From assembly GCA_903925685.1 (NCBI GenBank), contig CAIYGI010000104.1:1-32181 (forward strand): DNA of 32,181 nucleotides. The letters run 5' to 3'. Source of the DNA: an uncultured bacterium (GTDB taxonomy: Bacteria > Verrucomicrobiota > Kiritimatiellia > CAIKKV01 > CAIYGI01). Positions 5,907 through 31,810 of this stretch are shown here, piece by piece. A program made the position numbers and the translations under genes. Numbering within the stretch: the stretch's first letter is position 1; each line of letters opens with the position of its first letter. Below the pieces are notes generated by a model. The model saw nothing but the letters and a program-made list of their open reading frames with translations. It had not been told where the DNA came from and searched no databases.

Positions 5907-6146
5907 GGGTTGCGAACGGCATCGGATACCTGGGGCGCGGCTTCGCCCGTGTCCGCTGTGCCCATTGTTCACTCTTCCTGACGGCGGCGCTGGTTTGTGG
6001 TGATCTTGACGTTTATCCGAGTTTCTGGCAGGCTGCCCAGGCATGGCGATCTTTTGCGGTTTCAGGCATGATTTCGACCTATGCGGGCAGGACGAAAAGC
6101 GATTTCTTATCGATTCAATCGAAATAGTTGGAACGGGAAAAGCATT
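5907..6146 (+). promoter_or_regulatory. Intergenic region with a perfect 13-base palindrome
   Basis: This is the gap between the DUF4838 gene and the MFS gene. It holds TCGATTCAATCGA at 6110-6122, two 6-base arms around one central base, which could be an operator for the transporter. No clear promoter or T-tailed terminator was found. A weak GGGCG/CGCCC hairpin lies just after the DUF4838 stop. The palindrome would fall inside the coding region if the transporter began at ATG 6081, which is one reason to prefer GTG 6147. Confidence 0.25.
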
Positions 6147-10921: not shown

Positions 10922-10970
10922 GTGGCATGGGCGTCCCGCCCATGAATCACGGGCAAGATGCCCGTGCCAC
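10922..10970 (+). repeat. Compound palindromic repeat (two hairpins inside an outer stem)
   Basis: The outer arms GTGG (10922-10925) and CCAC (10967-10970) enclose two perfect 8-bp hairpins. The first is CATGGGCG/CGCCCATG (10926-10933, 10937-10944, loop TCC). The second is CACGGGCA/TGCCCGTG (10948-10955, 10959-10966, loop AGA). The whole can fold as a three-way junction. On the minus strand it would read as a GILPVIHGRDAHAT-like peptide, a motif I associate with dispersed intergenic repeats of PVC bacteria. A second element of the same design lies at 31811-31866. It is probably a REP/MITE-like repeat, not a terminator, because no T-tract follows. Confidence 0.7.
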
Positions 10971-10980
10971 GTTGGTTGGC

Positions 10981-10990
10981 GGGGGGGGGG
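10981..10990 (+). repeat. G10 homopolymer run
   Basis: Ten consecutive G residues lie between the palindromic repeat and the SD of the propeller gene. Such a run is prone to slippage. It lies outside the coding region if translation starts at 11054, so length changes would not shift the frame, but they could alter spacing in the leader. Confidence 0.5.
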
Positions 10991-11053
10991 CAAGCGGCTC
11001 CAAAGCAAACAACAGCGCGACCGGACATCCGGCCGTGGACAAAGGAGGACACA

Positions 11054-13102
11054 ATGGGTGCAAGAACGTATAAATTCAAATTGTTTTCGGATGATTATTT
11101 CCGCTTGATCAACCAGACCGGCGTGCGGCAGCGCGTCGGCCTTTGCGGTCTTGACTACGCCAACTGCTGGGACTTGAATGTTTCCCCGGATGGCATCGTT
11201 TATTACGCCCCCTGCGATGAGACAGGCCGCAACCGCCACACGCGGCTGATCGCCTATGATTACCAGGCCGACACGGCGAAAATATGCGTCAAGGCGGAAG
11301 AGGTTGCCCTGCCGAAATTTCGCCAGCTTCCGGCCACAAAATTTCACGAGTCGATCTGCTTTCTTCCGGATGGCAGGGTCTTTGCAACCACCCACACGAC
11401 CGACCGCGCTCCGGCGCATCCCGAATTCATGCTTATCGCCCACCATACCCACATCTGGGAAGGGTGGCCGGGCTCGACGATGGTGTGCTACGATCCGAAG
11501 ACGGGCAAGGCCGAGAATTGGGGCGTACCGGCGCCGCGCGAAACCATATACGGCGCCACCTACGACGCGAAGCACAACGCCGTTTACATGATCGGGTTCA
11601 CACGAGGCCACGTGTACCGATTTTCCCTTGACGACCATAGTGTCAAGGATTTGGGCAAGGCTGCCGAGCTTTACTGTTATCGCCTCCATCCCGGGCCCGA
11701 CAAGCACATCTACGGCTGCACAAAGTCGGGGTATTTGTTTAGAATCAATGTGGATACGGAGAAGATCGAGGATCTCAACTGGCGCGTTCCCGAGTATCCC
11801 GGCAACTACTGCAACAACACATGGTACCGCTATATGAGCCAGGCTCATAACGTGGACGACCACACGTTTGTTTTCGTACCCAGTTGCTCGGACGAGTTTT
11901 TTAAGTTTGACACGCAAACCCTCAAGGTTGCGTCCATCGGGCGAAAGGCGCCTTTCGACGAGTTTGTGGACTGCATGCCGACGACCATGACCATTAACGA
12001 GTCCGCGATGGACAAGCACGGCGTGCTGTGGTACGTCATCGGGCCTAACCCCTTGCAGTCAATGGACGATTTCCGCGTCTACGCGGGTCCCGGCTACCTG
12101 ATGCGCTGGGATTACTTGAACAACAAACAGCCCGAATGTCTCGGCGCGACGGGCACACCCGACTACCAGCAAAGACGCGCATCGTGTCTCTGCATTGACA
12201 AGAAGCGGGATATGCTTTACGTGATTGGCGGCCACGAAGGCGGTCTGAGCCTCCTTTGCATCGACCTTGAGAAGTTCCGTCCGCACATGTACGAGCCAGG
12301 CCCGCTGTCCACAGACCCGATTTTCCGCCCCAGGGACATGACGCCCGAGGAGAAAGCGCTCAAGATCAAACGCGGCAAGGCGACCGAAGAGACCACGGCA
12401 TTTAATTCATATTACGCCTTTCCCATCGAAAACATCACGCCCGTCCGACTCTGGAGAAACGTCCCTCATACAAACATCGAGGACTCCAAGGTCATCGGCC
12501 TTGTATGGGATGACGACAATCTGCTCCATGGCCTTTGCGGAGACAAGACCCGGTACTGCTTCACGATCAAGGACAAGAAGGTTGCCAACTTCGCGCCGTT
12601 TGACGAGGCCGACGGGAAATACAAGGCATGGCTTCTCAACGGCATTTATCCCCGGGCCTGCGTTTTTGACGACACCATCGTTCTCCCTCACGTTGTCGGC
12701 CGCCAATATATCGCGAAAGCTTCTGCTGTCGCGGAGTGGAACGGCGGCAGGAAGATTGTGGGGACGAAGGACGGCCTGCTTGCCATTGTCAGCGGGTCCG
12801 ATGTTTATGCCCTGGGCAACGCCGCCGCCTACGGACCGGTGCGCTGTCTTTGTGTCAATGCGCTGAAAACCAGACTGTGGGGCACCGCCGGCGACGATGA
12901 AGACCTGGGGACGGTATTCTATTATGATGACAAGGTTGGGATCCGGCAGCTCGGTTTCCTGATGTATAACATCCACGGCTATTTTGACGGCCCCTCGGCC
13001 AGCAATATTCTTTCCAGCATCGTCGTCAGCAAGGATGAAAAGCTTATCGCCGTCGGCGGCGCCGACCGGATGGGTGCCATTCATATCGCCGACCTCAAGT
13101 AG
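11054..13102 (+). CDS. Cytoplasmic beta-propeller protein of unknown function
   Basis: I chose ATG 11054 because AAAGGAGG lies just upstream; the longer frame from 10958 would run through the palindromic repeat and the G10 run. The 682-residue product has no signal peptide. Recurrent blade-like strands are visible: VSPDGIVYYAP, SICFLPDGRVFATTH, ATYDAKHNAVYMIGFTRG, LHPGPDKHIYGCTKSGYLFR, CIDKKRDMLYVIGGHEGG and SSIVVSKDEKLIAVGGADR. These resemble SMP-30/YVTN/PQQ-type propellers, probably with more than seven blades or two propellers. Histidines are abundant near residues 100-145 (THTTDRAPAHPEF; IAHHTHIW) and might bind a metal. No catalytic family can be assigned. It lies between an intact and a broken Gfo/Idh/MocA gene, so a role as an intracellular sugar lactonase, lyase or isomerase is only a guess. 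Confidence 0.75.
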   Translation: MGARTYKFKLFSDDYFRLINQTGVRQRVGLCGLDYANCWDLNVSPDGIVYYAPCDETGRNRHTRLIAYDYQADTAKICVKAEEVALPKFRQLPATKFHESICFLPDGRVFATTHTTDRAPAHPEFMLIAHHTHIWEGWPGSTMVCYDPKTGKAENWGVPAPRETIYGATYDAKHNAVYMIGFTRGHVYRFSLDDHSVKDLGKAAELYCYRLHPGPDKHIYGCTKSGYLFRINVDTEKIEDLNWRVPEYPGNYCNNTWYRYMSQAHNVDDHTFVFVPSCSDEFFKFDTQTLKVASIGRKAPFDEFVDCMPTTMTINESAMDKHGVLWYVIGPNPLQSMDDFRVYAGPGYLMRWDYLNNKQPECLGATGTPDYQQRRASCLCIDKKRDMLYVIGGHEGGLSLLCIDLEKFRPHMYEPGPLSTDPIFRPRDMTPEEKALKIKRGKATEETTAFNSYYAFPIENITPVRLWRNVPHTNIEDSKVIGLVWDDDNLLHGLCGDKTRYCFTIKDKKVANFAPFDEADGKYKAWLLNGIYPRACVFDDTIVLPHVVGRQYIAKASAVAEWNGGRKIVGTKDGLLAIVSGSDVYALGNAAAYGPVRCLCVNALKTRLWGTAGDDEDLGTVFYYDDKVGIRQLGFLMYNIHGYFDGPSASNILSSIVVSKDEKLIAVGGADRMGAIHIADLK

Positions 13103-18245: not shown

Positions 18246-19661
18246 ATGTTGCGTTACAATGGCATGCCGGTCCTGACGAGCGAAGCTGCGGTCCGTAAAG
18301 CGGCAGATGTGACAGTGGAGATTGGGGCGCCGCAGATCGTCGCCTCCAGGGACGAATCGCCGGACGAGGGGACTTTCGTGGCGCCCAAGTTGCAACGCTT
18401 CGGCAAGACCATCTATTTGAACTGGTCGTTTTGGTGGGATGCGGAAGCCCCTTCTCTACCCGACAAACCCAACGGCCGCCTGAGTGAGGACGGAGGACTG
18501 ACCTGGAAGAAGCAGACCGTCCTCTTGCCGTCGGGTGGGTTCGGCACATGCCAAACCGGCGAGCGCGAGATCACCTCCTGGTCCTCGGATTCCTTTGAAA
18601 TCCCGGGCCGACCCGGAGTGTATAAGATCCCCACTTGGCGCTCGTCCGACTTGGGCCAGACGTGGACGGGTCACACATGGACGACCGTCGAGTATCCCGG
18701 AACCAAAGGGCTGGATGCCTACGATCCTCCCGAAGAGTATCGCAAGCGGGACGGCAACTACCTGCGCGGAGCAACCTTGCCGACCCCGCCCGCTTACCTT
18801 GAGCCCTATTTTCGCGAGGTGTCGCGCCTGCGTCCCCTGATGTGGTATGGTATTGTCCCTCAAGGCATGGATCAAGATGGAACTTTGTACAGCCTGACAT
18901 ATGGTAGATACCTCAAGGATACCACCGGTATCCGGGATTGGGACCGCGAGTACTGGCAACGCCTGAACTGGTTCCGCTACGCCGTGCTGATGCAGGTGTC
19001 ACGCGACCATGGCCGCACCTGGACTTTCGCCGGCGTGCCGGTGGACGGGTCGGACTACGAACCGCGCCTGGGCATAAAACCCGGCGGGTCCCAGTACAAC
19101 GAAGATTCGTTTGTGATCAATTCTGGCAATCAAATCGGAGCCGGCTTCAAGGGACGGGTGGACTTCTGTCCTGGCGATGGCTTCAGCGAACCCTCCATGG
19201 TTATTTTCCCGGACGGCGAAATGCTCTGTGCCTTGCGCACGGGCGCCAACAAGCCGCTGTACTGCGTCCGCAGTTACGACCGGGGCCGCACATGGACCCG
19301 GGCCGACCTCTTGTCGCCGAGGTATATTCAGCCCATCTGCGGGAAACTGCCCCAGTTGGTGCTGCTCAAGAACGGCATCCTGGCACTGCAAACCGCTTCG
19401 CCCGACTGCACGGTCCATTTCTCAAAAGACCGGGGCCACACCTGGTTCCTGAGCGAAACGCTGTTCGCCACCCCCCAAACGATTACCTGGGACGGGATTT
19501 ATGCGGGAACTCACGGCAATAACTCCATGATCGCGGTGGACGACAACACGTTGCTTTATGTGCATGATGCCTTACGCCCGGACCCCACAGCATCCATCGC
19601 CTGGATGCGGCATGCCGGACATGGACTCGTCATTGCGCGAAGAATACAGGTAAATGTCTGA
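18246..19661 (+). CDS. Sialidase-like Asp-box (BNR) propeller protein
   Basis: The 471-residue protein has five clean Asp boxes (SxDxGxTW): SEDGGLTW 80-87, SSDLGQTW 133-140, SRDHGRTW 252-259, SYDRGRTW 343-350 and SKDRGHTW 393-400. They mark a six-bladed sialidase-type propeller. FSEPSMVIFPDGEMLCALRT is the typical strand around a catalytic Glu in exo-alpha-sialidases and related glycosidases. A full arginine triad could not be confirmed by eye, so the substrate may not be sialic acid. No signal peptide is visible. AAAGGAG 6 bases before the ATG fixes the start. It lies between GH4 and GH95-like genes. Confidence 0.85.
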   Translation: MLRYNGMPVLTSEAAVRKAADVTVEIGAPQIVASRDESPDEGTFVAPKLQRFGKTIYLNWSFWWDAEAPSLPDKPNGRLSEDGGLTWKKQTVLLPSGGFGTCQTGEREITSWSSDSFEIPGRPGVYKIPTWRSSDLGQTWTGHTWTTVEYPGTKGLDAYDPPEEYRKRDGNYLRGATLPTPPAYLEPYFREVSRLRPLMWYGIVPQGMDQDGTLYSLTYGRYLKDTTGIRDWDREYWQRLNWFRYAVLMQVSRDHGRTWTFAGVPVDGSDYEPRLGIKPGGSQYNEDSFVINSGNQIGAGFKGRVDFCPGDGFSEPSMVIFPDGEMLCALRTGANKPLYCVRSYDRGRTWTRADLLSPRYIQPICGKLPQLVLLKNGILALQTASPDCTVHFSKDRGHTWFLSETLFATPQTITWDGIYAGTHGNNSMIAVDDNTLLYVHDALRPDPTASIAWMRHAGHGLVIARRIQVNV

Positions 19662-19740: not shown

Positions 19741-22700
19741 ATGGATTCAAAGGATGTTTTGCACCAGGTCCGGTATGACAATGCCTTCAGCGACTGGTCC
19801 GAAGCCCTGCCGCTAGGCAACGGCCACTTCGGCGCGATGGGTTATCTCGACCGCGAAGACGGCCTGGTTTTTACGTTCAATCATTATGACGTGTACTATC
19901 GGAGCAACCTCTCGCCAGAGGCGTTGGCTGCGGGAAAGCCGTACGACCGCAAGGGATGGCGGGAGGTCGATCGCGAAGAGATGAAACGTCGAGCGCTGGA
20001 GGCGCATGCGGATCCGAATCATCCCGCGCATCAAAACTACAATGTTTGCTTTTGGCCCGAACTTGCGACGCGTTGGGGCTTTCCGACCCTTCTATGCCCT
20101 GGTGGCGCCCTGGCGATCGCCGGATCCTTGCGGCTGCTCCCGCGAAAAGGGGCGCTTGAGTCGTCTCCCCATTCGACGACGCTGGAAATCGAAAAGGCGA
20201 GGGTGCGGTTCTCCATGCCGAATCTCGAATTGCGGTCGTTCGTCGCGCAGGGTTCCGATATATTCGTGGCGCGGGTGGCCCAGACGGAGCCGGGCGCCTT
20301 CGAATCCCTCGAGCTGTCCGTCCCGAAAATGCGGTTGCATCCTATCGTTCCCGTGCGCGCCGACGGGGCGAATGGCTCTGTGTTTTTCATCGAAAACAGC
20401 TTCTTCCCGGGCGGGTCGAATCAGGGAGCGGCTCCTTACCACTACGTCATCGCGGTTAAACTCATCGGCGCAAAAGGCGAACTCAAACGTCATGCCGACG
20501 CCGATGTCCTGGACGTTGTTCTGCAACAGCAAACGAAGGACATGACGATTCTGGTGACGGTGATTCCACCGGACGAAGGGCCGGACCTTGTCGCCGCCGC
20601 CTGCCGCAAGTTGGAGGATGCGGCGGAACAACTGGACAAAATCGAAACGGCGCATCAGAAGCATTGGAGCGGTTTTTTCAGCGCGTCGCGGGTCTCTCTG
20701 CCGGATCGGATGCTTGAAACGCTCTGGTATCTCCACCTGTATTCGCTGGCCTCGTGCAGCGGGGAAGGCTCGCGCCTGTACGGCGAGGCTTGTGGCCTCA
20801 ACGGATTGTGGAATATCAAAGGACCGACCCAATGGGGGAGTTCCTGGTACTGGGACGTCAATATCGAGCAGGCGTACTGGCCTGTTTTTACCAGCAATCA
20901 TCTGGAATTGGCCAAACCGTTCCACAAGGGACTGCTGGCCTGGGTCGACGCGGCCCGCGCCCATGCCAAGGAATACCATAAGTTGGACGGCATTGCGTCC
21001 GATTACCCGTTCACCTATTTTATGTCCATCTGGGCCTGGTGCGCGCAGTATTTCTGGTGGTATTACACATATTCCGGGGACGAGTCATTCCTCAAAGAGA
21101 CCGCCTACCCGCTCTTCAAGGAGATCTTACGTTTCTACGAGGGGTATGCCGAGTACGACAAGGAAACCGGGAAACTGGTGATTTTCCCGGATGTCTGTCC
21201 GGAGCAGGGCCCGCTGACGCGCAACTCGATGAGCACCATGAGTTGCTTGAAGTTTCTCCTGCGAATGGGAATTCAGAGCAGTGAAACGCTCGGGTGCGAT
21301 GAGGATCTGCGCAACAAATGGAGGAACATGCTGAACCGGTGCGGGGAATACGCCTGGAACACGTCGCATCAATTTGGCGAATATTACATGGACTGCGAAT
21401 GGTCGGAAGACCTGCTCTACCTGGGCCACAGCGGCATTCTGAAGCCGATCTACCCCAATCGTGAAATAACCAAGCGCAGCCCGCCAACGGAGCGGAACAG
21501 GGCGCTGGGCACCTTTCGCTACTGCGACGGGCTTCAGGCCCACTGCACGCACGCCATCTGGCCGGCCGCCGCCGCCGCCGTCCTCGGGCTGGGTGACGAA
21601 GCGGCTCGGATCCTTTATGACCGGGGCATCTCGTTGCAGATGTCGGCCAGCGGCATGTTCTCCGAAGAAACCGAACGGTGGTTGCAAAATTGCCTGACCT
21701 ACTCCTTCCCGGTCTATAATCCGCCGCTGATCGAGGCCGGCAGCACGGTCGTGGCGGTGATCAACGAGATGCTCCTGCAAAGTTACGACGGAGTGATCGA
21801 GGTTTTCCCGGCCATCCCGGTCGGCGCGCCGACGAAGCGCTATCACAATGACTGGCTCAACCCGCCGCATTGGGCGCCGGCGCCGGTTCATAAGTGGGAG
21901 GAATGCGCTTTCGAAAACCTGCTGGCCGAGGGCGCGTTCGAGGTTTCGGCGTGGTTGCGTGGCGGAAAAACAGCCGCCGTGCGCATCAAGAGTCGCAAGG
22001 GCAATGTCGTGCGCTTGCTCGATCCGTTTTCCACGGAAGCGGCGGTTGTCAGAAACGGCGCCGCCAAGGTCGCGCACACATGTCAGGATGGGATTCTGTC
22101 GTTCCCCACAACCGCCGGTCAGACGTATGAGATTTCCACGGGCGGAGAAGCGCAGGCACCGGTCGAGAAGACGGACGCGGACACTACCCTGCCGCTTGTC
22201 GCAACGGCGTTCACACGCCGCCGCGTTTTTATCGGCAAAGACCGAAATACGGAATTTTACCGCGCCTTGGACTGCGCGTTTCTCGATTTCTATCCAGGGG
22301 ATATGCCGCAATCCAAGTGGACGATTTACAAATTCGACTTCACCCAGCCCCCAGTTTGCAAGGACTACTTCAAGGTCGTTTCCTGGCAGTGGCACATCAA
22401 CCGCAAGGCCGGAGGGGAATTCGTGCCCATTTCAGCCGACAGCAAATATGACTACACGGTGGGACGCGGTTGGGCTGACATTGAGCATTTGACCTATATA
22501 GATCGGGGCGCTCCGGACGAGCTGAGGAGGGACTTCGTCTGCTCCAAGACAGCCGCGGAATTCCTTGTGTTCCTGCGCGCCGGACAATACCAGATTATGC
22601 TTGTTTCCGGGGACCAGGAGGCTGCCAGTGGTATCTCAGTGAGTGTGCCGGGGGGCACCTCATGGGAATCCGGGCCGCTCGCCCCCGGATCGTTTGCCGT

Positions 22701-22815
22701 GGGCACCATACTGCTCAATCACGTTCGGGATGGCGCCGCATCCTTCCATCTCGATTCGCCGAAGCCGTCTCCGGGCTGGGCGCTGTGCGCGTTGCTGATC
22801 AATAAAATCATATAG
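19741..22815 (+). CDS. GH95-like glycosidase with extra C-terminal domain
   Basis: The 1024-residue protein opens with the GH95 N-terminal signature ALPLGNGHFGAMGY (22-35) on a beta-sandwich. An (alpha/alpha)6 barrel follows, with GLWNIKGPTQWGSSWYWDVN (355-374) and IEQAYWP after it. GH95 enzymes hydrolyse alpha-L-fucosides or L-galactosides. Active-site segments differ from the canonical family: the usual NxN reads DVN (372-374), and the IDGNFG segment reads LIEAGST (663-669), followed by the expected INEMLLQS. Residues about 840-1024 form an additional sandwich-like domain (VGRGWADIEHLTYIDRG; LRAGQYQIMLVSGDQE), like the N-terminal domain of rhamnogalacturonan-acetylesterase-type proteins. 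No signal peptide was seen. GAGGGGAG lies somewhat far upstream of the ATG. The stop is followed 9 bases later by the next gene. Confidence 0.8.
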   Translation: MDSKDVLHQVRYDNAFSDWSEALPLGNGHFGAMGYLDREDGLVFTFNHYDVYYRSNLSPEALAAGKPYDRKGWREVDREEMKRRALEAHADPNHPAHQNYNVCFWPELATRWGFPTLLCPGGALAIAGSLRLLPRKGALESSPHSTTLEIEKARVRFSMPNLELRSFVAQGSDIFVARVAQTEPGAFESLELSVPKMRLHPIVPVRADGANGSVFFIENSFFPGGSNQGAAPYHYVIAVKLIGAKGELKRHADADVLDVVLQQQTKDMTILVTVIPPDEGPDLVAAACRKLEDAAEQLDKIETAHQKHWSGFFSASRVSLPDRMLETLWYLHLYSLASCSGEGSRLYGEACGLNGLWNIKGPTQWGSSWYWDVNIEQAYWPVFTSNHLELAKPFHKGLLAWVDAARAHAKEYHKLDGIASDYPFTYFMSIWAWCAQYFWWYYTYSGDESFLKETAYPLFKEILRFYEGYAEYDKETGKLVIFPDVCPEQGPLTRNSMSTMSCLKFLLRMGIQSSETLGCDEDLRNKWRNMLNRCGEYAWNTSHQFGEYYMDCEWSEDLLYLGHSGILKPIYPNREITKRSPPTERNRALGTFRYCDGLQAHCTHAIWPAAAAAVLGLGDEAARILYDRGISLQMSASGMFSEETERWLQNCLTYSFPVYNPPLIEAGSTVVAVINEMLLQSYDGVIEVFPAIPVGAPTKRYHNDWLNPPHWAPAPVHKWEECAFENLLAEGAFEVSAWLRGGKTAAVRIKSRKGNVVRLLDPFSTEAAVVRNGAAKVAHTCQDGILSFPTTAGQTYEISTGGEAQAPVEKTDADTTLPLVATAFTRRRVFIGKDRNTEFYRALDCAFLDFYPGDMPQSKWTIYKFDFTQPPVCKDYFKVVSWQWHINRKAGGEFVPISADSKYDYTVGRGWADIEHLTYIDRGAPDELRRDFVCSKTAAEFLVFLRAGQYQIMLVSGDQEAASGISVSVPGGTSWESGPLAPGSFAVGTILLNHVRDGAASFHLDSPKPSPGWALCALLINKII

Positions 22816-22824
22816 GAGAAGATC

Positions 22825-24834
22825 ATGCTGAAACAACGGAAGAACGTTGTGACGATGTGGACGGGACTGCTGCTGATGTCCGGGAGTCTGGCCCTGACGG
22901 CGGACTTGACGGCGGGCGCGGAGACCATCGGGGCCAAGGCTTCCAAGGAGCCCTCCGCCCAGGAAGTCTACAGCTGCGCCAAGATTAACGAGTCCATCGT
23001 CGTGGACGGCAGACTCGACGAGAACGCCTGGGCGAACGCGCCCTCCATGAAGATCGTCGACATCGTCAAAGGCACGGACCCCTTTTACCGGACCGAGGCC
23101 AAGGTGCTCTGGGACGACGAGCGGCTCTATGTGGGGTTCCGTTTCGAGGATCCAGACATCCGCGGCTACTGGGCAATGGATGATGCCCATACTCCGGAGG
23201 ACTTCAAGCTTCCGGAAAGCTTCGACATAGGCCGCAGAACAGGGAACCCGGAATGGGACAGGAAAGAGTGCGCAATCATGGTGATGGACCGATTCGCCAA
23301 AGTCTTTCTCGACCCGGACGGCGACGGGAGCAACTATCTGGAGTTCCAAGTGAACGCCCTGAACAACGTGTTCGACGCCTGGTATAAGCAAGGCTTACAC
23401 AAAGCAGGGGGGCGGTTTCCGCATGTCGCTTGGAAGTGCCCCGGGCTCATCACCGCCACGCATATCGATGGTTCCATCAACAACCCCACCGACATCGACC
23501 GCGGCTGGTCGATCGAGATGTCCATCCCCTGGAAATCTCTGAAACCGTTCACCAGGGGAAGCAGCCCGCCCAAGGACGGCGATGTCTGGGGCGCGCACCT
23601 CGGCAGGGTCTTCCACAACCACGACGGCTCGCACACCTATTGGGTCTGGCCTTTCATCGGAGCGGTCGAATGCCATAGTCCCAACCTTTACGGCAAACTG
23701 GTTTTCTCGGACAAGCTGCCAAAGTTCGAGCGGTTTTTTGCCTGGGGCGGCAAGGATGACGAGGACTTCATCAAACGCGCCGCCGACATTGGTGTCACGG
23801 ATTTGATTGGAGCCCCGCTCACCCCCAAACTGGTCGAACTCTACGCAAAATACCACATCAAGCCATACTCGGTGGTCACCCTTGCGCTGTCGCCCGCCTG
23901 GAAGGCGCGTCATCCCGATCTGCCCGTTCCCTTCCAAGAACTCTCGGATGCGGAGAAATTGATTCTGGACAAGATCAGCGGCAAGACGTACCAGGAGGAT
24001 GCCCCCGGCACGACAGGCCAGCCGGAGAACTGGCAGGTGACGCCGGCGCAGAAGGCGCTGATCGAGGCGATGGGCAGGAAGAACTATAAAATCCAAAGCG
24101 CCTACGCCTGGGGTGGCGAGCCCGACGGGAAATTTTTCGGGGGGCAAAAACAGGAGATCATGTCGACGGGCGCGTTGTGCTTCCACCACCCGGAGGTCAA
24201 AGAGCTGGCCAAGGAGGCTGTGGCCAAAGCCTTGGCGGTGAATGGGGTGGCGGGTGTGGCTTTTGACGGGATCGGCTACGAGAACTACCACTCCTGCCAC
24301 TGCCCGCTCAGCATGAAACTCTACGGGGAGTACTGCGCCAAGAACCAGCTCAAGCCTAGCGATGAGTCGCTGAACCGCTTCTCGCTCGACACCCTGGTGG
24401 ACTTCCAGAACGAGATGGTGGATTACGCCAAATCCATCCGGCCGGACGCCGTGACCGCCAACCACATCTGGCCGGTCTTCCAACCCGACCCGCTCTACGG
24501 CAACCGCTTGAAAATCGATTATTGCGCGCAGACGGCCGCATGGTTTTTCTATTGGGATCCCTTCCGGATCGCGTCGTACGCTAAAATCATAACGGAGGAG
24601 CAGAACAAGTTCTTCCCGGATGTCAAAGGCGTCGCGTTCATCGGGTATTACGACGCGGCCCTGTCGAACTATATCTTCGACCACAAGAGCCCCCAGCGGG
24701 TCGAACTGGAACTGCGATCCATCCTGAAAGGCGGATCGCGAATGCTCTCGATGAACAATCTGAACGATTTGCTTGCGAACCCGGATGTCGCTGCGGCATT
24801 CAAGAAGTTCATGAAAGGGGCGACGGCAAGATAA
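22825..24834 (+). CDS. Secreted CBM9-like / TIM-barrel glycosidase-like protein
   Basis: The 669-residue protein has a signal peptide (KQRKNVV, core MWTGLLLMSGSLALTA). Residues about 45-290 are a CBM9-type sandwich: INESIVVDGRLDENAWANAP, then DDERLYVGFRFEDPDI, and FLDPDGDGSNYLEFQVNALN, a classic CBM9/DOMON segment. Residues about 300-660 look like a divergent glycosidase barrel. GVAFDGIGYENYHSCHC places Asp481 at a likely strand end, and GVAFIGYYDAALSNYIFDHK lies near the C-terminus. No CAZy family is assigned. TAGGAG ahead of the ATG uses the TAG stop of the GH95-like gene. The first 25 or so residues nearly match those of the protein at 26001. It directly precedes a DUF4838 pseudogene. Confidence 0.75.
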   Translation: MLKQRKNVVTMWTGLLLMSGSLALTADLTAGAETIGAKASKEPSAQEVYSCAKINESIVVDGRLDENAWANAPSMKIVDIVKGTDPFYRTEAKVLWDDERLYVGFRFEDPDIRGYWAMDDAHTPEDFKLPESFDIGRRTGNPEWDRKECAIMVMDRFAKVFLDPDGDGSNYLEFQVNALNNVFDAWYKQGLHKAGGRFPHVAWKCPGLITATHIDGSINNPTDIDRGWSIEMSIPWKSLKPFTRGSSPPKDGDVWGAHLGRVFHNHDGSHTYWVWPFIGAVECHSPNLYGKLVFSDKLPKFERFFAWGGKDDEDFIKRAADIGVTDLIGAPLTPKLVELYAKYHIKPYSVVTLALSPAWKARHPDLPVPFQELSDAEKLILDKISGKTYQEDAPGTTGQPENWQVTPAQKALIEAMGRKNYKIQSAYAWGGEPDGKFFGGQKQEIMSTGALCFHHPEVKELAKEAVAKALAVNGVAGVAFDGIGYENYHSCHCPLSMKLYGEYCAKNQLKPSDESLNRFSLDTLVDFQNEMVDYAKSIRPDAVTANHIWPVFQPDPLYGNRLKIDYCAQTAAWFFYWDPFRIASYAKIITEEQNKFFPDVKGVAFIGYYDAALSNYIFDHKSPQRVELELRSILKGGSRMLSMNNLNDLLANPDVAAAFKKFMKGATAR

Positions 24835-24842
24835 AACATGGA

Positions 24843-25788
24843 ATGGCAATGTGTGGGATCGGCGCGGCGCTGCTCGTGGTGGCCGCCGGGTGCATGGAGA
24901 CGCTGGAAAAGGCGCGGCAGAAGGATGCCGAGGTTCGGGCGGCACCGCTGACCTTGGTGGACAAGGGCCAGAGCCTGGCGCCGATCATCGTGTTCTCGAA
25001 TGCGCCGCCATTCACCCGCAAGGCGGCAGACGAGTTGGCCGCCTATATCGAGAAGGTCGGCGGCGTCAAGCCGCAGGTCATCGAAGGCTTGCCCGATCCC
25101 GTGCCGGCACGCGCCATCTGGGTCGGATTCCAGCCTAAGGTGAAGGAACTCTTCCCGAAAACGGATTTCGATTTCAAGAACCCGGAAGAGATCCTCATCG
25201 CCGCCAACGACAAGAACCTGGTCATTGTCGGCCGCGACCGGTGGGATCCCCAGCACATGTTTGTGAAATCATGGTGGCCCCCCCCCATCAGAAGATCGAG
25301 GGCTGGCAGCAGGAATACGGCACGGTCAACGCGGTGTACACGTTTCTCCAGGATTATCTGGATGTGCGCTGGCTCTGGCCGGGCGAGATCGGCGAGGACA
25401 TAATCAAGAAGGACACGATCGCCTACGGGCCAAGCCTGCCGGCGCCGCTCAAGAACAAGCCGGACGACAACGTGATCGTCCTGTTTTGCTCAAACTGGTT
25501 CGCGGAAATGGGCGACAAGGATCGCGGATCTCTCATTGGCACAACGTTGTCGCAGGAATTCGCCAACTGGGCGGCGATCGGCGCGAATTTGTGGTGGCGC
25601 CCCAACATGAGCGGTGCTGGCGGCTACGATTATGGTCTTCCCTACGTGCCTTTTGGGCGGGTCATGGCAAGCGTGCGCCATATCGTAAAAAACAATTGCA
25701 CAGGGCTATGCTCACTGCGAAACCAACGCAGTATATGCAGATAGCTAATAGTGTAGCCCAGAATTGGCTGGACCCGAACAAACTGTGA
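24843..25788 (+). pseudogene. DUF4838 gene, copy A: frameshift plus two deletions
   Basis: The 5' part encodes a lipoprotein-like signal (ALLVVAAGC) and an alpha/beta domain closely similar to copies B and C (SLAPIIVF-NAPPFTRKAADEL; FPKTDFDFKNPEEIL). At 25279-25286 eight Cs replace the seven needed, shifting the frame. The correct frame continues as KIEGWQQEYGTVNAVYTFLQ. At about 25428 roughly 200 residues are missing, including the CxCxxC motif: IIKKDTIAYG joins PSLPAPLKNKPDD. At about 25712, after NNCTGLC, another block is gone and the frame changes. The tail then returns as MLTAKPTQYMQIANSVAQNW and ends DPNKL at TGA 25786-25788. It is almost certainly inactive. Its position directly after the CBM9-barrel gene mirrors the other two partner/DUF4838 pairs. 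Confidence 0.85.
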
Positions 25789-25925
25789 TTAGAGCAAGTC
25801 GCCAATCAGCCAAGTGCCGCGATAAGCTCGCCGAACTTCAACGCTGACGTTGGTGCAGGAGAGTACAGATCGTTGGTAAGCTCCTAACTCCGGGGCCGAA
25901 CAGGGAAAAATTATTACAAGGAGTG
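25789..25925 (+). other. Intergenic stretch after DUF4838 copy A
   Basis: The first bases (ATTAGAGCAAGTC after the TGA) match those after copy C, so the ancestral duplication included a little 3' flank. No gene was recognised in the rest. Confidence 0.4.
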
Positions 25926-25954
25926 TTGCTTTTTCAGGAGGGGCGGAGTATTAT
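25926..25954 (+). promoter_or_regulatory. Sigma-70-like promoter candidate before the DUF1080-like gene
   Basis: TTGCTT (25926-25931) and TATTAT (25949-25954) are separated by exactly 17 bases, inside the most AT-rich patch of this part of the window. ATG 26001 lies 46 bases further on, with AAGGAGG just before it. This would start a transcript covering the DUF1080-like gene, DUF4838 copy B, the TPR gene and DUF4838 copy C. Confidence 0.45.
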
Positions 25955-26000
25955 TATTTTTTGTTCTTTTGATTTAGCATGTAACACGAAGGAGGCGAGC

Positions 26001-26726
26001 ATGAAACAGCGGAAGAGTGTTGTGACGTTGTGGACGGGACTGCTGGTGATGTCCGGGAGTCTGGCGCTGACGGGGTTTGGGGCGGAGGCATCCACGGCCG
26101 CGGGCCCGGGCGTCGCGGAGAAGGCCGGCTGGACGCTGGTTTTCAGCGATGATTTCAAACGGGCGGAATTGGGGAAAGACTGGGAGGTGGTGGACGGGAA
26201 CTGGAAGATGGAGGATGGCGGACTGCGGGGCAGCGGCGAGTTGATATCCGCCCATGGGTTCCCATCGGATTATCCGCCGGGCTTCCTGCGTATGGAATTC
26301 GAGGCCGTCTCGGCTGTGAAGCCGATCATCTTTTTCAAGAATAGGCCGACGCCGAAGGTCGGGCTCTGCGACTTGAGTTCGTTCATCCATGTCGACACAA
26401 ACAAAGGCGCGTTTAGCTCTGGATATTTCTTTCAGTTTGGCGGGTACTTGAACACCCAGAACAAGTTGCTGAAAAACGGGCAGCAACGGCAGTTCGATGC
26501 GGCGCCGAAAAAGCTGATTTCCCAGGACGCTCTGCACAAGGTGGTGCTGGAAAACGACCAGGGGCAGGTGCGCTGTTTTGTCGATGGCGAACTCGTGTTG
26601 CACGATACGGATAAGCAGCCGGTCGTGGGCGTGGGCTACGACAGGGTTGGTTTTTATTTTACGACCGCGTTCAAGGTGTCGAACGTCAAGGTGTACGTGA
26701 AACGGCTGCCGAACGATATGAAATAA
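26001..26726 (+). CDS. Secreted DUF1080/LamG-like domain protein
   Basis: I chose ATG 26001 because AAGGAGG lies 4-10 bases before it; the longer frame from 25923 crosses the promoter region. The 241-residue product has a signal peptide (KQRKSVV, core LWTGLLVMSGSLALTG). A single concanavalin-like sandwich follows: TLVFSDDFKRAELGKDWEVV, NWKMEDGGLRGSGE, HKVVLENDQGQVRCFVDGEL and GVGYDRVGFYFTTAFKVSNV. This resembles DUF1080 (3-keto-disaccharide hydrolase / LamG-like) domains, which bind or cleave sugars. The leader nearly repeats that of the CBM9-barrel protein, with a different mature domain. It sits 15 bases ahead of DUF4838 copy B and is probably co-transcribed with it. Confidence 0.8.
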   Translation: MKQRKSVVTLWTGLLVMSGSLALTGFGAEASTAAGPGVAEKAGWTLVFSDDFKRAELGKDWEVVDGNWKMEDGGLRGSGELISAHGFPSDYPPGFLRMEFEAVSAVKPIIFFKNRPTPKVGLCDLSSFIHVDTNKGAFSSGYFFQFGGYLNTQNKLLKNGQQRQFDAAPKKLISQDALHKVVLENDQGQVRCFVDGELVLHDTDKQPVVGVGYDRVGFYFTTAFKVSNVKVYVKRLPNDMK

Positions 26727-26741
26727 GAGAGAGGAAGACGC

Positions 26742-28733
26742 ATGAATCGCATGAAACTGTTTTCGATTTCGTTGCTGTCGGTTTCCGCGCTGGTTCTGGC
26801 TTCGGCGGTGTATGCCGTAGACACGGCTAGTTTGCCATCCTCGGCCAAACGCGGGGAACTGGTGTTAACGGAGAAAGGGGCGAGCCTGGCGCCGATCATC
26901 GTCTTCAAAGACGCGCCGAACTTCACCCGGAAGGCGGCGGATGACCTGGCCGCCTATATCGAGAAAGTCAGCGGCGTCAAGCCGAAGGTCATCGAAGGCC
27001 TGCCCGATCCCATGCCGGAGCGCGCGATCTGGGTCGGATTCCAGCCCAAGCTCAAGGAACTGTTCCCTAAGACTGACTTCGATTTCAAGAATCCCGAGGA
27101 AATTCTGATCGCCTGCGACGGCAAAAACCTGGCAATTGTCGGGCGGGATCGCTGGGATCCCCAGCACATGGTGGAAAAAGCATACTGGCCCCCCTTCCCG
27201 AAGATCAATGGCTGGCAGCAGGAATACGGCACGGTCAACGCGGTGTATACCTTTCTCCAGGATTACCTGGAGGTGCGCTGGCTCTGGCCGGGAGAGATTG
27301 GCGAGGACATAATCAAGAAGGAGAAGATCGCCTTCGCGCCCTTTGAATATCGCTATCGCCCCCGGATCCGTTCGCGATGGACAATATTGTGGGATACAGC
27401 TATCGGGGATCCCCGAGGCGGTATTTCCCTGGACTGGTCGCGCTTGCAGCGCATGCTGCTGGATTCGTCAAACCTCATGTACCTTGGTTTTCCCTCTGGG
27501 CACTGGAGCCCGGTTAGGAAAGGTGAAGATTTTCTCAAGACGCACCCGGAGTATTATGCCCTCCAGCCCGACGGCACGCGCGGCACCTGGCCGACGTATG
27601 GGGTCAAGCTGTGCAAGTCCAACCCGGCGCTTTGGGATGAGTGGCTGAGAGAAGTGGAGGAGCAGCTCAAAGAGGATCCGACGCGGACCATGTTCAACGG
27701 TGCGGTCAACGACAACACCCTGGGCGGATTTTGCGTCTGTTCCAATTGCATAGCCTGGGATGTGCCCGAGGCGGAACCGCGTCTGTTGCTGTGGAAAGGC
27801 TTTTCCCAGGAGCACGTGGCGCTGTCCGACCGGCAGACGCGGTTCGCCAACCAGTTGGCGCGCAAGCTGCGGGCGCGCTACCCGGACAAGGAATATTACG
27901 TGCTAATGGACGGCTACGGTACGAGCCTGCCGGGGCCGCTCAAGAACAAGCCGGACGACAACGTGATCGTCATGCATGCCTCCACTTGGTTTGCGGAAAT
28001 GAACGATAAGGACTCAAAATCACCGCTGGGCACAACCTATTCGCGGGAATTCGCCGACTGGGCGGCGGCCGGCGCGAAGAATCTGTGGTGGCGCCCCAAT
28101 ATGAACGGCAATGGCGGCAAGGATTTTGGTCTTCCCGACGTGCCGTTGGGACGGTTCATGCAAAGCTTGCGCCATGCCGTCAAGAACAATTGTACCGGGA
28201 TCTGCCTCTCCGTCTTCGATCATTCCTGGCCGACGCAGGGACCGCTTTACTACCTGATGGCCCAGTTGGCCTGGAACCCCGATCAGGACGGATACAAGAT
28301 CCTCGACGACTATTATCGGCGCGGCTACGGGCCGGCGGCCGGGCAGGTGAAGGCGTACTGGACCCTGATGGAGAAAACACGCAACCGGAAGGTCGATGGC
28401 AATCTGGCGTATTGGAAGGCCTGGGATGACGCGGTGCTCAAACGCGCGGCCGGGCTGCTGGACGAGGCGGACGCCGTGCTGGTCAAGGAGCCGGAGATCT
28501 ACCGGAAGAGGATGGAGAATGTGCGTTTCGGCCTCGATTTTACGCGTCTGATGGTCGAGACGATGGAGTTGAAAGAGCAGTATGCGGCAAGCCAGAAACT
28601 GGACGGCAAGATCGCCGGCAGATTGCGTGAGAACATGAAGAAATTGACGGGTATGCTCACGGCGAAACCATCGCAGTATATGGGGCTATCTGCGAGTGTA
28701 GCCCGGGGATGGCTGGATCCGGATAAGCTGTGA
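26742..28733 (+). CDS. Secreted DUF4838 protein, copy B
   Basis: The 663-residue protein has a signal peptide ending SALVLASAVYAVD. There is no lipobox cysteine, so it should be released by signal peptidase I. Residues about 40-190 are the alpha/beta domain (KAADDLAAYIEKVSGVKP; GTVNAVYTFLQDYLEVRWLW). The DUF4838 barrel follows, with HPEYYALQPDGTRG and the CxCxxC motif at 331-336 (CVCSNC). A helical C-terminal region ends GWLDPDKL. Length and sequence are nearly those of copy C (also 663 residues). An 80-base run (28284-28363) is identical to 31302-31381 even at synonymous sites, pointing to recent duplication or gene conversion. GAGAGGAAG ahead of the ATG supports the start. Likely a glycan-active enzyme; its exact activity is unknown. 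Confidence 0.85.
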   Translation: MNRMKLFSISLLSVSALVLASAVYAVDTASLPSSAKRGELVLTEKGASLAPIIVFKDAPNFTRKAADDLAAYIEKVSGVKPKVIEGLPDPMPERAIWVGFQPKLKELFPKTDFDFKNPEEILIACDGKNLAIVGRDRWDPQHMVEKAYWPPFPKINGWQQEYGTVNAVYTFLQDYLEVRWLWPGEIGEDIIKKEKIAFAPFEYRYRPRIRSRWTILWDTAIGDPRGGISLDWSRLQRMLLDSSNLMYLGFPSGHWSPVRKGEDFLKTHPEYYALQPDGTRGTWPTYGVKLCKSNPALWDEWLREVEEQLKEDPTRTMFNGAVNDNTLGGFCVCSNCIAWDVPEAEPRLLLWKGFSQEHVALSDRQTRFANQLARKLRARYPDKEYYVLMDGYGTSLPGPLKNKPDDNVIVMHASTWFAEMNDKDSKSPLGTTYSREFADWAAAGAKNLWWRPNMNGNGGKDFGLPDVPLGRFMQSLRHAVKNNCTGICLSVFDHSWPTQGPLYYLMAQLAWNPDQDGYKILDDYYRRGYGPAAGQVKAYWTLMEKTRNRKVDGNLAYWKAWDDAVLKRAAGLLDEADAVLVKEPEIYRKRMENVRFGLDFTRLMVETMELKEQYAASQKLDGKIAGRLRENMKKLTGMLTAKPSQYMGLSASVARGWLDPDKL

Positions 28734-28776
28734 TTAGAGTGAGTATTCGAACTGAAGCTGAAAGATGGAGGTTATC

Positions 28777-29763
28777 ATGCCTACTCAACAGAACATGGGT
28801 ATTATGAAGCGGTTTTCTATTGGGTCGCTATTGAAGAGAAGCGTTCTGACGGTCATGCTGTTTTGGGCGCCGCTGGCCTTCTCCGCGGATTTCAAGTACT
28901 TCCACCAGAAGTACCAGGAGAGCGTGGCGGATGGGCTCATGCAGGATAAGAACTATCCGGCGGCGCGCGAGGCCTTCGAAAAGCTGGCCGCCACAGCCAA
29001 AGACGCCATCGAAAAGGCCATGTGGCAGGCGCGTGCCGCCGAGGCTGTCGGGCTTCAGAATGGCAAATTCGATGAGGGGCTGGCGCTGGCGAAAGCCATC
29101 GACGACAAGCCGTACTCCGTGCAGATCCAAATTCAGCTCATGTTTGCGAAAGGCGACTACACGGGCATTGTCAATAGGTTTGGCCAGGAGAGCATTGCCG
29201 CCTGGCCGCCGCGCCGAATCGTGCAGCGGGTCGGGTGGTTCAAGGACGAGGATGCCCGCGGCATGGCGTTGTACCACCGCGGCCTTGCGTACTATCGCAC
29301 GGGCACCGGCGCGGCCGCCGAGAAAGACCTTGAGCAGGCGGCGGAGCTCGCCGTCAACAATGACCAAAAAGTGAGCGTCTATCGCAACTTGGCCGAGATG
29401 GAGGCGCAGCTTCTCAAGAACAAAGCGAAAGCATTCGATGCCAACATGAAACTCACGTATCTTCAAGGAGGGGAGCCGGTCCTGATGGGCTTCCTCCGCG
29501 CCGCAGACTACCTGCGGGAACAGAAAAGGTACGACGAGGCGCTGGAACTTCTGCGCAGGATGCCTGTGTCTGCTGAGCTACAGGATGGCGACAGCTGGAC
29601 GCAATGTAAACTTTACGCCATGGGGCAGGCGCTCGCCGAGGCCGGCAAGACGGAAGAGGCCATCGCCATCTACAACAAACTGGTCGCATCAGAACAATGC
29701 AGCGCTTACTACAAAACAACCGCGAAAAAGGCGCTGGAAAAGCTCCGAAAGGGAAACACATGA
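28777..29763 (+). CDS. Exported TPR-repeat protein
   Basis: ATG 28777 has GGAGG 5 bases upstream, so it is preferred to ATG 28765, which lies in that SD. The 328-residue product has a signal peptide (KRSVLTVMLFWAPLAFSADF). Helix-turn-helix TPR-like units follow: KNYPAAREAFEKLAATAKDA, GMALYHRGLAYYRTGTGAAA, EQKRYDEALELLRRMP and EAGKTEEAIAIYNKLVASEQ. TPR proteins serve as scaffolds for complexes, here outside the cytoplasm. Its stop overlaps the start of DUF4838 copy C (ATGA, 29760-29763). This coupling suggests that the two products are made together and may interact. No enzymatic motif was seen. Confidence 0.85.
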   Translation: MPTQQNMGIMKRFSIGSLLKRSVLTVMLFWAPLAFSADFKYFHQKYQESVADGLMQDKNYPAAREAFEKLAATAKDAIEKAMWQARAAEAVGLQNGKFDEGLALAKAIDDKPYSVQIQIQLMFAKGDYTGIVNRFGQESIAAWPPRRIVQRVGWFKDEDARGMALYHRGLAYYRTGTGAAAEKDLEQAAELAVNNDQKVSVYRNLAEMEAQLLKNKAKAFDANMKLTYLQGGEPVLMGFLRAADYLREQKRYDEALELLRRMPVSAELQDGDSWTQCKLYAMGQALAEAGKTEEAIAIYNKLVASEQCSAYYKTTAKKALEKLRKGNT

Positions 29764-31751
29764 ATCGCATGAAACAGGTTTCAATTCGGTTGCTGTCGGT
29801 TTCCGCGCTGGTTCTGGTTTTGGCGGTGTACGCCGGATGCACGGCCGATTTACCATCGTCGGCACAACGCGGGGAACTGGTGTTGACGGACAAGGGTGCG
29901 AGCCTGGCGCCGATAATCGTGTTCAAGGACGCGCCGCCATTCACCCGGAAGGCGGCGGATGAACTGGCCGTGTATATCGAGAAGGTCAGCGGCGTCAAGC
30001 CGCAGGTCATTGAAGGCCTGCCCGATCCCGTGCCGGAGCGCGCGATCTGGGTCGGATTCCAGCCGAAGCTCAAGGAACTGTTCCCTAAGACTGACTTCAA
30101 TTTCAAGAATCCCGAGGAAATTCTGATCGCATGCGACGGACGGAACATGGTCATTGCCGGGCGCGACCGGTGGGATCCCCAGCACATGGTGGAAAAATCA
30201 TACTGGCCCCCATTTAAGAAGATCGAGGGCTGGCAACAGGAATTCGGCACGGTCAACGCGGTGTATACCTTTCTCCAGGATTACCTGGAGGTGCGCTGGC
30301 TCTGGCCGGGCGAGATCGGCGAAGACATTATCCGGAAGGAGAAGATCGCCTTCGCGCCCTTTGAATATCGCTATCACCCCCGGATCCGTGCGCGATGGAC
30401 AATATTGTGGGATACAGCTATCGGGGATGTCCGTGGTGGTGTTTCACTGGACTGGTCGCGCTGGCAGCGCATGCTGCTGGACTCGTCAGACTTGATGTAC
30501 AGGGGTTTCCCCTCTGGGCACTGGAGTCCGGTTAGGAAAGGTGAAGATTTCCTCAAGACGCACCCGGAGTATTATGCCCTCCAGCCCGATGGCACGCGCG
30601 GCACTTGGCCGCCGTATGGTGTAAAGCTGTGCAAATCCAACCCGGCGCTTTGGGATGAGTGGCTGAAAGAAGTTGAGGAGCAACTCAAAGATGATCCGAC
30701 TCGGACCATGTTCGACGGTGCGGTCACCGACAACAGCCGGAGCGGATATTGTGTCTGCGATAACTGCCTTGCCTGGGATGTGCCCGAGGCGGAATCGCGG
30801 CGTCTGTACTGGAACGGGCTTACCATGGAGTATGTCGCGATGAGCGACCGGCAGACGCGCTTCGCCAACCAGTTGGCGCGCAAACTGCGGGCACGCTACC
30901 CGGACAAGGATTATTACGTGTTAATGGACGGCTACGGTCCGAGTCTGACGGCGCCGCTCAAAAACAGGCCGGACGACAACGTGATCGTCATGCATGCCTC
31001 CAGTTGGTTCGCGGAAATGAACGATAAGGATCAAAATTCAAAGGTGGGCACAACCTATTCGCGGGAATTCGCCGACTGGGCGGCGGCCGGCGCGAAGAAT
31101 ATGTGGTGGCGCCCCAATATGAACAGCGCCGGCGGCAAGGATTGGGGTCTTCCCGACGTGCCTTTGGGACGGTTCATGCAATGCTTGCGCCATGTCGTAA
31201 AGAACAATTGCACCGGAATATGCCTCTCCGTCTTCGATCATTCCTGGCCGACGCAGGGTCCGCTTTATTACCTGATGGCCCAGTTGGCCTGGAACCCCGA
31301 CCAGGACGGATACAAGATCCTCGACGACTATTATCGGCGCGGCTACGGGCCGGCGGCCGGGCAGGTGAAGGCGTACTGGACGCTGATGGAGGAAACGCGC
31401 AACCGGACGGTCGATGGCAAGCTGGCTTATTGGAAGGCATGGGATGAAGCGGTGCTCAAGCGCGCGGCCGGCCTGCTGGACGAGGCGGACGCCGTGCTGG
31501 CCAGGGAGCCGGAGATTTACCGGAAGCGGATGGCGCATGTGCGTTTCGGCCTCGATTTCACGCGTCTGATGGTCGAGACGATGGAGTTGAAAAAGCAGTA
31601 TGAGGTGAGCAAGAAGCAGGACCCAAAGATCGCCGACAGATTGCGTGATCACATGAAGAAATTGACGAGTATGCTCACGGCGAAACCCTCGCAGTATATG
31701 CAGATAGCTAATTCTATAGCCCAGAATTGGCTGGATCCGAATAAGTTGTGA
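29760..31751 (+). CDS. DUF4838 lipoprotein, copy C
   Basis: The start is ATG 29760, matching copy B's MNRMK opening, with AAAGGGAA just upstream in the end of the TPR gene; the longer frame from 29697 is only overlap. The 663-residue protein has the same domains as copy B, with CVCDNC at 331-336 and the tail NWLDPNKL. The leader differs in one key way: it reads LVLAVYAGC, a good lipobox, so this copy should be lipid-anchored while copy B is released. Long stretches are identical to copy B at DNA level. It is co-translated with the TPR gene. Its probable role is extracytoplasmic glycan processing; the activity is not established for DUF4838. Confidence 0.85.
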   Translation: MNRMKQVSIRLLSVSALVLVLAVYAGCTADLPSSAQRGELVLTDKGASLAPIIVFKDAPPFTRKAADELAVYIEKVSGVKPQVIEGLPDPVPERAIWVGFQPKLKELFPKTDFNFKNPEEILIACDGRNMVIAGRDRWDPQHMVEKSYWPPFKKIEGWQQEFGTVNAVYTFLQDYLEVRWLWPGEIGEDIIRKEKIAFAPFEYRYHPRIRARWTILWDTAIGDVRGGVSLDWSRWQRMLLDSSDLMYRGFPSGHWSPVRKGEDFLKTHPEYYALQPDGTRGTWPPYGVKLCKSNPALWDEWLKEVEEQLKDDPTRTMFDGAVTDNSRSGYCVCDNCLAWDVPEAESRRLYWNGLTMEYVAMSDRQTRFANQLARKLRARYPDKDYYVLMDGYGPSLTAPLKNRPDDNVIVMHASSWFAEMNDKDQNSKVGTTYSREFADWAAAGAKNMWWRPNMNSAGGKDWGLPDVPLGRFMQCLRHVVKNNCTGICLSVFDHSWPTQGPLYYLMAQLAWNPDQDGYKILDDYYRRGYGPAAGQVKAYWTLMEETRNRTVDGKLAYWKAWDEAVLKRAAGLLDEADAVLAREPEIYRKRMAHVRFGLDFTRLMVETMELKKQYEVSKKQDPKIADRLRDHMKKLTSMLTAKPSQYMQIANSIAQNWLDPNKL

Positions 31752-31810
31752 TTAGAGCAAGTCTGCAAGCAGCCAGTCATGCCATCTTTAGTTCGCCTTT
31801 GCACTATCGT
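31752..31810 (+). other. Intergenic 3' flank of DUF4838 copy C
   Basis: ATTAGAGCAAGTC matches the flank after copy A. No terminator with a T-tract and no gene were seen before the palindrome that follows. Confidence 0.35.

Follow-up and report, generated by a model that had tools for sequence, protein, structure and literature searches.

Duplication and decay of DUF4838 genes at a Kiritimatiellia locus and their association with exported TPR proteins

DUF4838 proteins are without an assigned function and are nearly absent from the literature that we searched, with a single mention in passing, yet up to 76 matches to the family are found in one genome. The locus described here raises the question of which neighbouring proteins a DUF4838 protein works with. 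The window, which is the whole stretch of 32,181 nucleotides analysed, is contig C104 of a 347-contig, 4.12 Mb assembly from an uncultured member of the Kiritimatiellia; the named genome collection yielded a single close relative, a MAG labeled “uncultured Lentisphaerae bacterium” (G058), which would suggest that the window is Lentisphaerae-like. A sequence-only reading of the window had described three DUF4838 genes (copies A, B and C), each directly following a gene for a different secreted protein, and had proposed that each DUF4838 protein acts in a machine together with the product of the gene directly before it.

Gene content of the locus

The gene order given in that reading is correct (pA, copy A, pB, copy B, the TPR gene and copy C, all on the plus strand; Table 1), as are the spacings of 8 nt, 15 nt and an ATGA overlap at 29760-29763. 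Copies B and C were rightly called DUF4838 genes, scoring 101.7 and 106.7 bits respectively against a Pfam cut-off of 26.6 (PF16126), and the third proposed partner is indeed a TPR protein, with TPR_14, TPR_12 and TPR_2 above cut-off. The descriptions of the other two partners held in part. For the first, described as a CBM9-TIM barrel protein, the CBM9 portion was recovered as a CBM9_1 match of 29.7 bits (cut-off 23.4) that spans part of the profile. The second, described as a DUF1080-like sandwich, belongs to a family with weak, sub-cut-off matches to PF06439 (formerly DUF1080), Laminin_G_3 and DUF6250, the ConA-like families matching together; the PF06439 cut-off itself is not reached, the best match among pB relatives having E=0.0017, and pB itself gives no PF06439 match at E<=0.1.

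Table 1. Features of the window that bear on the DUF4838 locus.
Feature	Coordinates	Strand	Remarks
Fourth, distant DUF4838 gene, 896 aa	3216..5906	+	~22% identical to copies B and C
BNR-repeat (sialidase-like) protein	18246..19661	+	Pfam BNR_2; relatives recurrent in DUF4838-TPR-sandwich loci
GH95-family glycoside hydrolase	19741..22815	+	
pA, exported protein	22825..24834	+	CBM9_1 domain, and a C-terminal part without an assigned family
Copy A, DUF4838 pseudogene	24831..25788	+	Start codon replaced by ATA; frameshift within 25250-25283; two large deletions
pB, exported ConA-like sandwich protein	26001..26726	+	Weak PF06439, Laminin_G_3, DUF6250
Copy B, intact DUF4838 protein, 663 aa	26742..28733	+	
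Exported TPR protein	28765..29763	+	Member of a family dedicated to loci with DUF4838
Copy C, intact DUF4838 protein, 663 aa	29760..31751	+	ATGA overlap with the TPR gene

Genes of GH95, GH4, BNR, esterase-like and oxidoreductase-like type lie nearby, and an MFS transporter is encoded at 6081-7877. A relative ~90% identical to the GH95 protein adjoins DUF4838 genes in G058 (contig C287). The protein at 10958-13102 has no confident family; relatives of it are found in G058 after a DUF4838-TPR-DUF4838 arrangement (C549, 87% identical) and on a second contig (C305, 78%), so it may share in the DUF4838 system.

The genes for pA and pB have a 72-nt signal-peptide stretch in common (22829-22900 and 26002-26073; 92% identical) and unrelated protein bodies. 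The core of this stretch has no further occurrence in the genome, and the likeness suggests an exchange between neighbouring genes.

A pseudogene and a gene-sized duplication

The count of three DUF4838 pairs failed at copy A. Translated matches to copies B and C across this region are split over three frames, with residues 9-151 in frame 1 (up to 25283), residues 140-200 and 392-488 in frame 3, and residues 637-663 in frame 2. No counterpart remains of residues 201-391 and about 489-636, some 339 of the 663 codons being deleted, and a +2 frameshift lies within a C-run between 25250 and 25283. The residues of active-site type that are conserved in other family members (H254, C291, D324, C331, C333 and C336) are all in the deleted part. 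The original start (MKHGMA or MRHGMA in relatives) is now an ATA codon, at 24831-24833, that overlaps the pA stop, so that the 8-base spacing in fact runs to an internal Met (24843). No intact single-frame domain remains, and the best fragment scores 16.5 bits, under the DUF4838 cut-off. Copy A is a non-functional gene, which leaves one of the three pairs without a working DUF4838 protein.

The final 27 codons of copy A (25705-25788) are nearer to copy C (31670-31775; 89%) than to copy B (69%), which suggests gene conversion. This tail, and the fragmented state of an assembly that carries more than 30 DUF4838 matches on its 347 contigs, could also be read as signs that the lesions are an assembly artefact in a MAG rich in DUF4838 paralogues and that three intact pairs exist. 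We find this scarcely credible: there are multiple lesions (start codon, frameshift and two deletions) and divergence is seen along the whole length, at ~65-75% protein identity, which excludes a B/C chimera, and DUF4838 fragments are also found at C171 and C198 in the same genome (G000). Further broken or partial copies are present in G058 (C329 and C579). Decay of paralogues is thus recurrent, although some of the incomplete copies in the two genomes end at a contig edge.

Copies B and C share 86% identity and, in a comparison of 31 relatives, group as sisters (support 100/100). Their DNA homology is limited to 26733-28739 and 29752-31757, that is, from ~9 nt 5' of the ATG to 6 nt 3' of the stop, and the genes upstream of them (sandwich and TPR, respectively) are mutually unrelated. 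The DUF4838 gene was copied alone, without its upstream gene, and came to lie beyond the TPR gene. Duplication of a partner and its DUF4838 gene as one unit was rejected on this confinement of the homology.

The TPR gene and its linkage to DUF4838 across genomes

The TPR gene begins 31 nt 3' of copy B, a point omitted from the sequence-only reading, and the window alone therefore cannot assign it to copy B or copy C. We compared the genes around members of the close DUF4838 subfamily, which share 41-86% identity with copy C, in this genome and G058, together with those around more distant relatives. In the close subfamily the TPR gene is downstream of DUF4838 in 11 copies, nine of them largely intact: window copy B, C185 and C226 in this genome (C226 with one small ORF between), and C369, C239, C105, C490, C549 and C398 in G058. 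The two with fragments are also in G058, C356 having a TPR fragment and C579 only the end of the DUF4838 gene. The reverse order, a TPR gene immediately 5' of an intact close-subfamily DUF4838 gene, is essentially limited to window copy C; on G058 C226 the upstream TPR is a fragment, on G058 C58 a sandwich gene lies between, and on C88 of this genome the preceding TPR relative is distant (~30%) and the DUF4838 ORF has an N-terminal extension. A substantial minority of loci, chiefly long-type ones, also have TPR ahead of DUF4838. The usual order in these two genomes is DUF4838 then TPR, and the “partner upstream” register is mostly wrong.

A recurrent gene order could be read from these loci: DUF1559 pseudopilin, DUF4838, TPR, sandwich, BNR. 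The DUF1559 pseudopilin is the commonest readable upstream neighbour of DUF4838 in G058; none is found upstream of copies A, B and C in the window. Sandwich genes occur on either side, being after or fused to DUF4838 on C112 of this genome and on G058 C287, C222 and C133, and before it at window copy B and on G058 C58 and C356. Natural fusions are varied: DUF4838-sandwich proteins of 892 and 897 aa, with the sandwich at the DUF4838 C-terminus, are encoded on G058 C287 and C222, and this genome encodes a DUF4838-CBM9 fusion (C226), a DUF4838-CBM9-TPR fusion (C149) and TPR-DUF4838-GH2N fusions (C265 and C201). Relatives of pA in G058, G004 and G017 have no adjacent DUF4838 gene, which excludes pA as a general DUF4838 partner.

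These observations bear directly on the proposal that each DUF4838 protein forms a machine with a different secreted protein encoded upstream. The order and tight spacing in the window, and the fusion of all three module types to DUF4838 somewhere, are in keeping with it; it is contradicted by the dead copy A, the usual 3' position of the TPR gene, the occurrence of pA relatives away from DUF4838 and the duplication of copy B or C without a partner, and we regard it as improbable.

Some further rearrangements were seen in passing. On G058 C579 a TPR body (L099, 3646-4611) carries the signal peptide that elsewhere heads a sandwich protein and is followed by a sandwich C-terminal remnant, an apparent swap of signal peptide or domain. 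A 568-aa protein without a Pfam match (MKKELHVTVDF...; L096, 3014-4720) lies near TPR/DUF4838 genes in G058, and a stretch similar to it forms the 400-aa N-terminal DUF4838 extension on C88 of this genome (L049, 327-3464).

The TPR family is beside or fused to DUF4838 at 12 of its 14 loci in this genome and at 22 of 31 in G058, and linked genes are always on the same strand in both. Uniform placement gives P values of ~7e-17 and ~5e-23 respectively, which overstate the linkage since paralogues share history and are not independent events. Nearly all of the unlinked TPR loci start at the end of a contig, which cuts off whatever lay upstream; the clear exceptions are C74 of this genome and C217 of G058. 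Distances among DUF4838 and TPR proteins are correlated (Mantel r=0.83, p=0.007; nine neighbours), a result driven largely by two clades.

Scanning six other genomes of the order gave 31 upstream and 31 downstream close same-strand neighbours of DUF4838. Six of the 31 on each side are another DUF4838 gene and one has TPRs; the others are diverse carbohydrate genes. Upstream neighbours in these genomes are thus heterogeneous, and the TPR linkage, nearly absent there, is clade-specific; the cassette is numerous only in this genome and G058. Matches to DUF4838 number 33 here, 76 in G058, 62 in G007 and 0 in the genus-mate G001, an extreme and patchy expansion. A DUF4838 search of viral contigs gave no match.

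What stands of the earlier proposal is a functional link between DUF4838 and the TPR, sandwich and CBM9 modules, supported by adjacency and natural fusions; the fixed upstream partner does not. Paralogous DUF4838 enzymes could instead be merely co-transcribed in a carbohydrate operon, acting on a common substrate with no physical complex, as the heterogeneous neighbours in other genomes and the gene-precise duplication would allow. We consider this possible although rather unlikely, since one TPR family hardly occurs outside DUF4838 loci and forms fusions in which either it or DUF4838 comes first.

Candidate function of DUF4838 and of the cassette

A DUF4838 profile was built from 29 diverse proteins, and a separate profile from the barrel core. 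The former matches the GH67 alpha-glucuronidase 1k9d (E=2.9e-6) in its N-terminal domain and a C-terminal stretch; no match extends across the 1k9d catalytic barrel, only the flanking stretches, which speaks against membership of GH67, and unlike that enzyme DUF4838 has a conserved Cys4 motif. The barrel-core profile gave five matches, among them weak ones to GH42 beta-galactosidases (E 0.11-0.25): 1kwg leads the list at E=0.11 and 3tts ranks fourth at E=0.21. In the weak 1kwg alignment C..D..CxCxxC is in register with DUF4838, as is CxCxxC for 3tts; the other domains of the GH42 enzymes differ. These GH42 Cys residues presumably hold zinc, and the presumed acid/base Glu of GH42 has no counterpart at the aligned DUF4838 position. 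H254, C291, D324 and CxCxxC (C331, C333, C336) are present in 27-29 of the 29 aligned DUF4838 proteins, with D324 invariant, and copies B and C retain all of them.

From these likenesses we infer that DUF4838 is a retained hydrolase barrel of GH67/GH42 type, in which D324 is likely important; the invariant D324 together with Cys4 is suggestive of hydrolytic activity. Searches of PDB sequences with single proteins gave nothing informative, and a search of NCBIfam nothing useful. AlphaFold2 models of a DUF4838-sandwich fusion (892 aa, five alignment rows; pLDDT 34, pTM 0.27) and of the sandwich domain (two alignment rows; pLDDT 34) were too poor for a fold search.

For the TPR protein a working analogy is found in systems where an exported TPR region binds a polysaccharide-processing enzyme and makes it more active: PgaB gains in both deacetylase and hydrolase activity when bound by the TPR region of PgaA (PMC9384988), and PelB boosts deacetylation by PelA (PMC12022489). 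On this precedent we propose TPR scaffolding of DUF4838 as an analogy and not as membership; no porin, synthase or deacetylase was seen at the DUF4838 locus, the enzyme families are unrelated to DUF4838 by our tests, and the DUF4838 setting is catabolic. The locus resembles polysaccharide utilization loci in its clustered glycoside hydrolases, binding modules and MFS transporter; there is no Pfam match to SusC or SusD among the scanned window proteins, which speaks against a SusCD-type locus.

The reading that we favour, with a probability of roughly 0.6, is of an exported glycan-degradation cassette amplified by duplication and shuffling of DUF4838 genes. The cassette would consist of a predicted DUF4838 glycosidase, the dedicated exported TPR protein and a ConA-like sandwich protein, often with DUF1559 before and BNR after, and would serve to break down an external glycan. 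Most likely the DUF4838 barrel, as the putative enzyme, would act on the polysaccharide, with the TPR protein as a scaffold for enzyme and/or polymer and with the sandwich and CBM9 modules as putative glycan binders. DUF4838 genes would spread through duplications the size of one gene, their copies entering cassettes or being exchanged between them; in the window, copy B would have given rise to copy C beyond the TPR gene, and copy A has decayed. A more specific version is speculative, and we hold it to be unlikely: a SusCD-independent, exported glycan-degrading assembly in bacteria of Lentisphaerae type, in which a dedicated TPR scaffold holds many interchangeable DUF4838 hydrolases and binding modules, the enzyme slot being refreshed by gene-precise duplication and conversion. 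Here the ConA-like and CBM9 modules would act in trans or fused, perhaps with a link to the DUF1559 pseudopilins.

The linkage evidence from adjacency and fusions is independent of what the sequence-only reading had available, and it corrects the pairing hypothesis: copy B becomes the first candidate partner of the TPR protein, followed by copy C, and copy A and pA drop out as candidates. For DUF4838, the near restriction of one TPR family to its loci, together with the natural fusions, provides a concrete experimental entry point.
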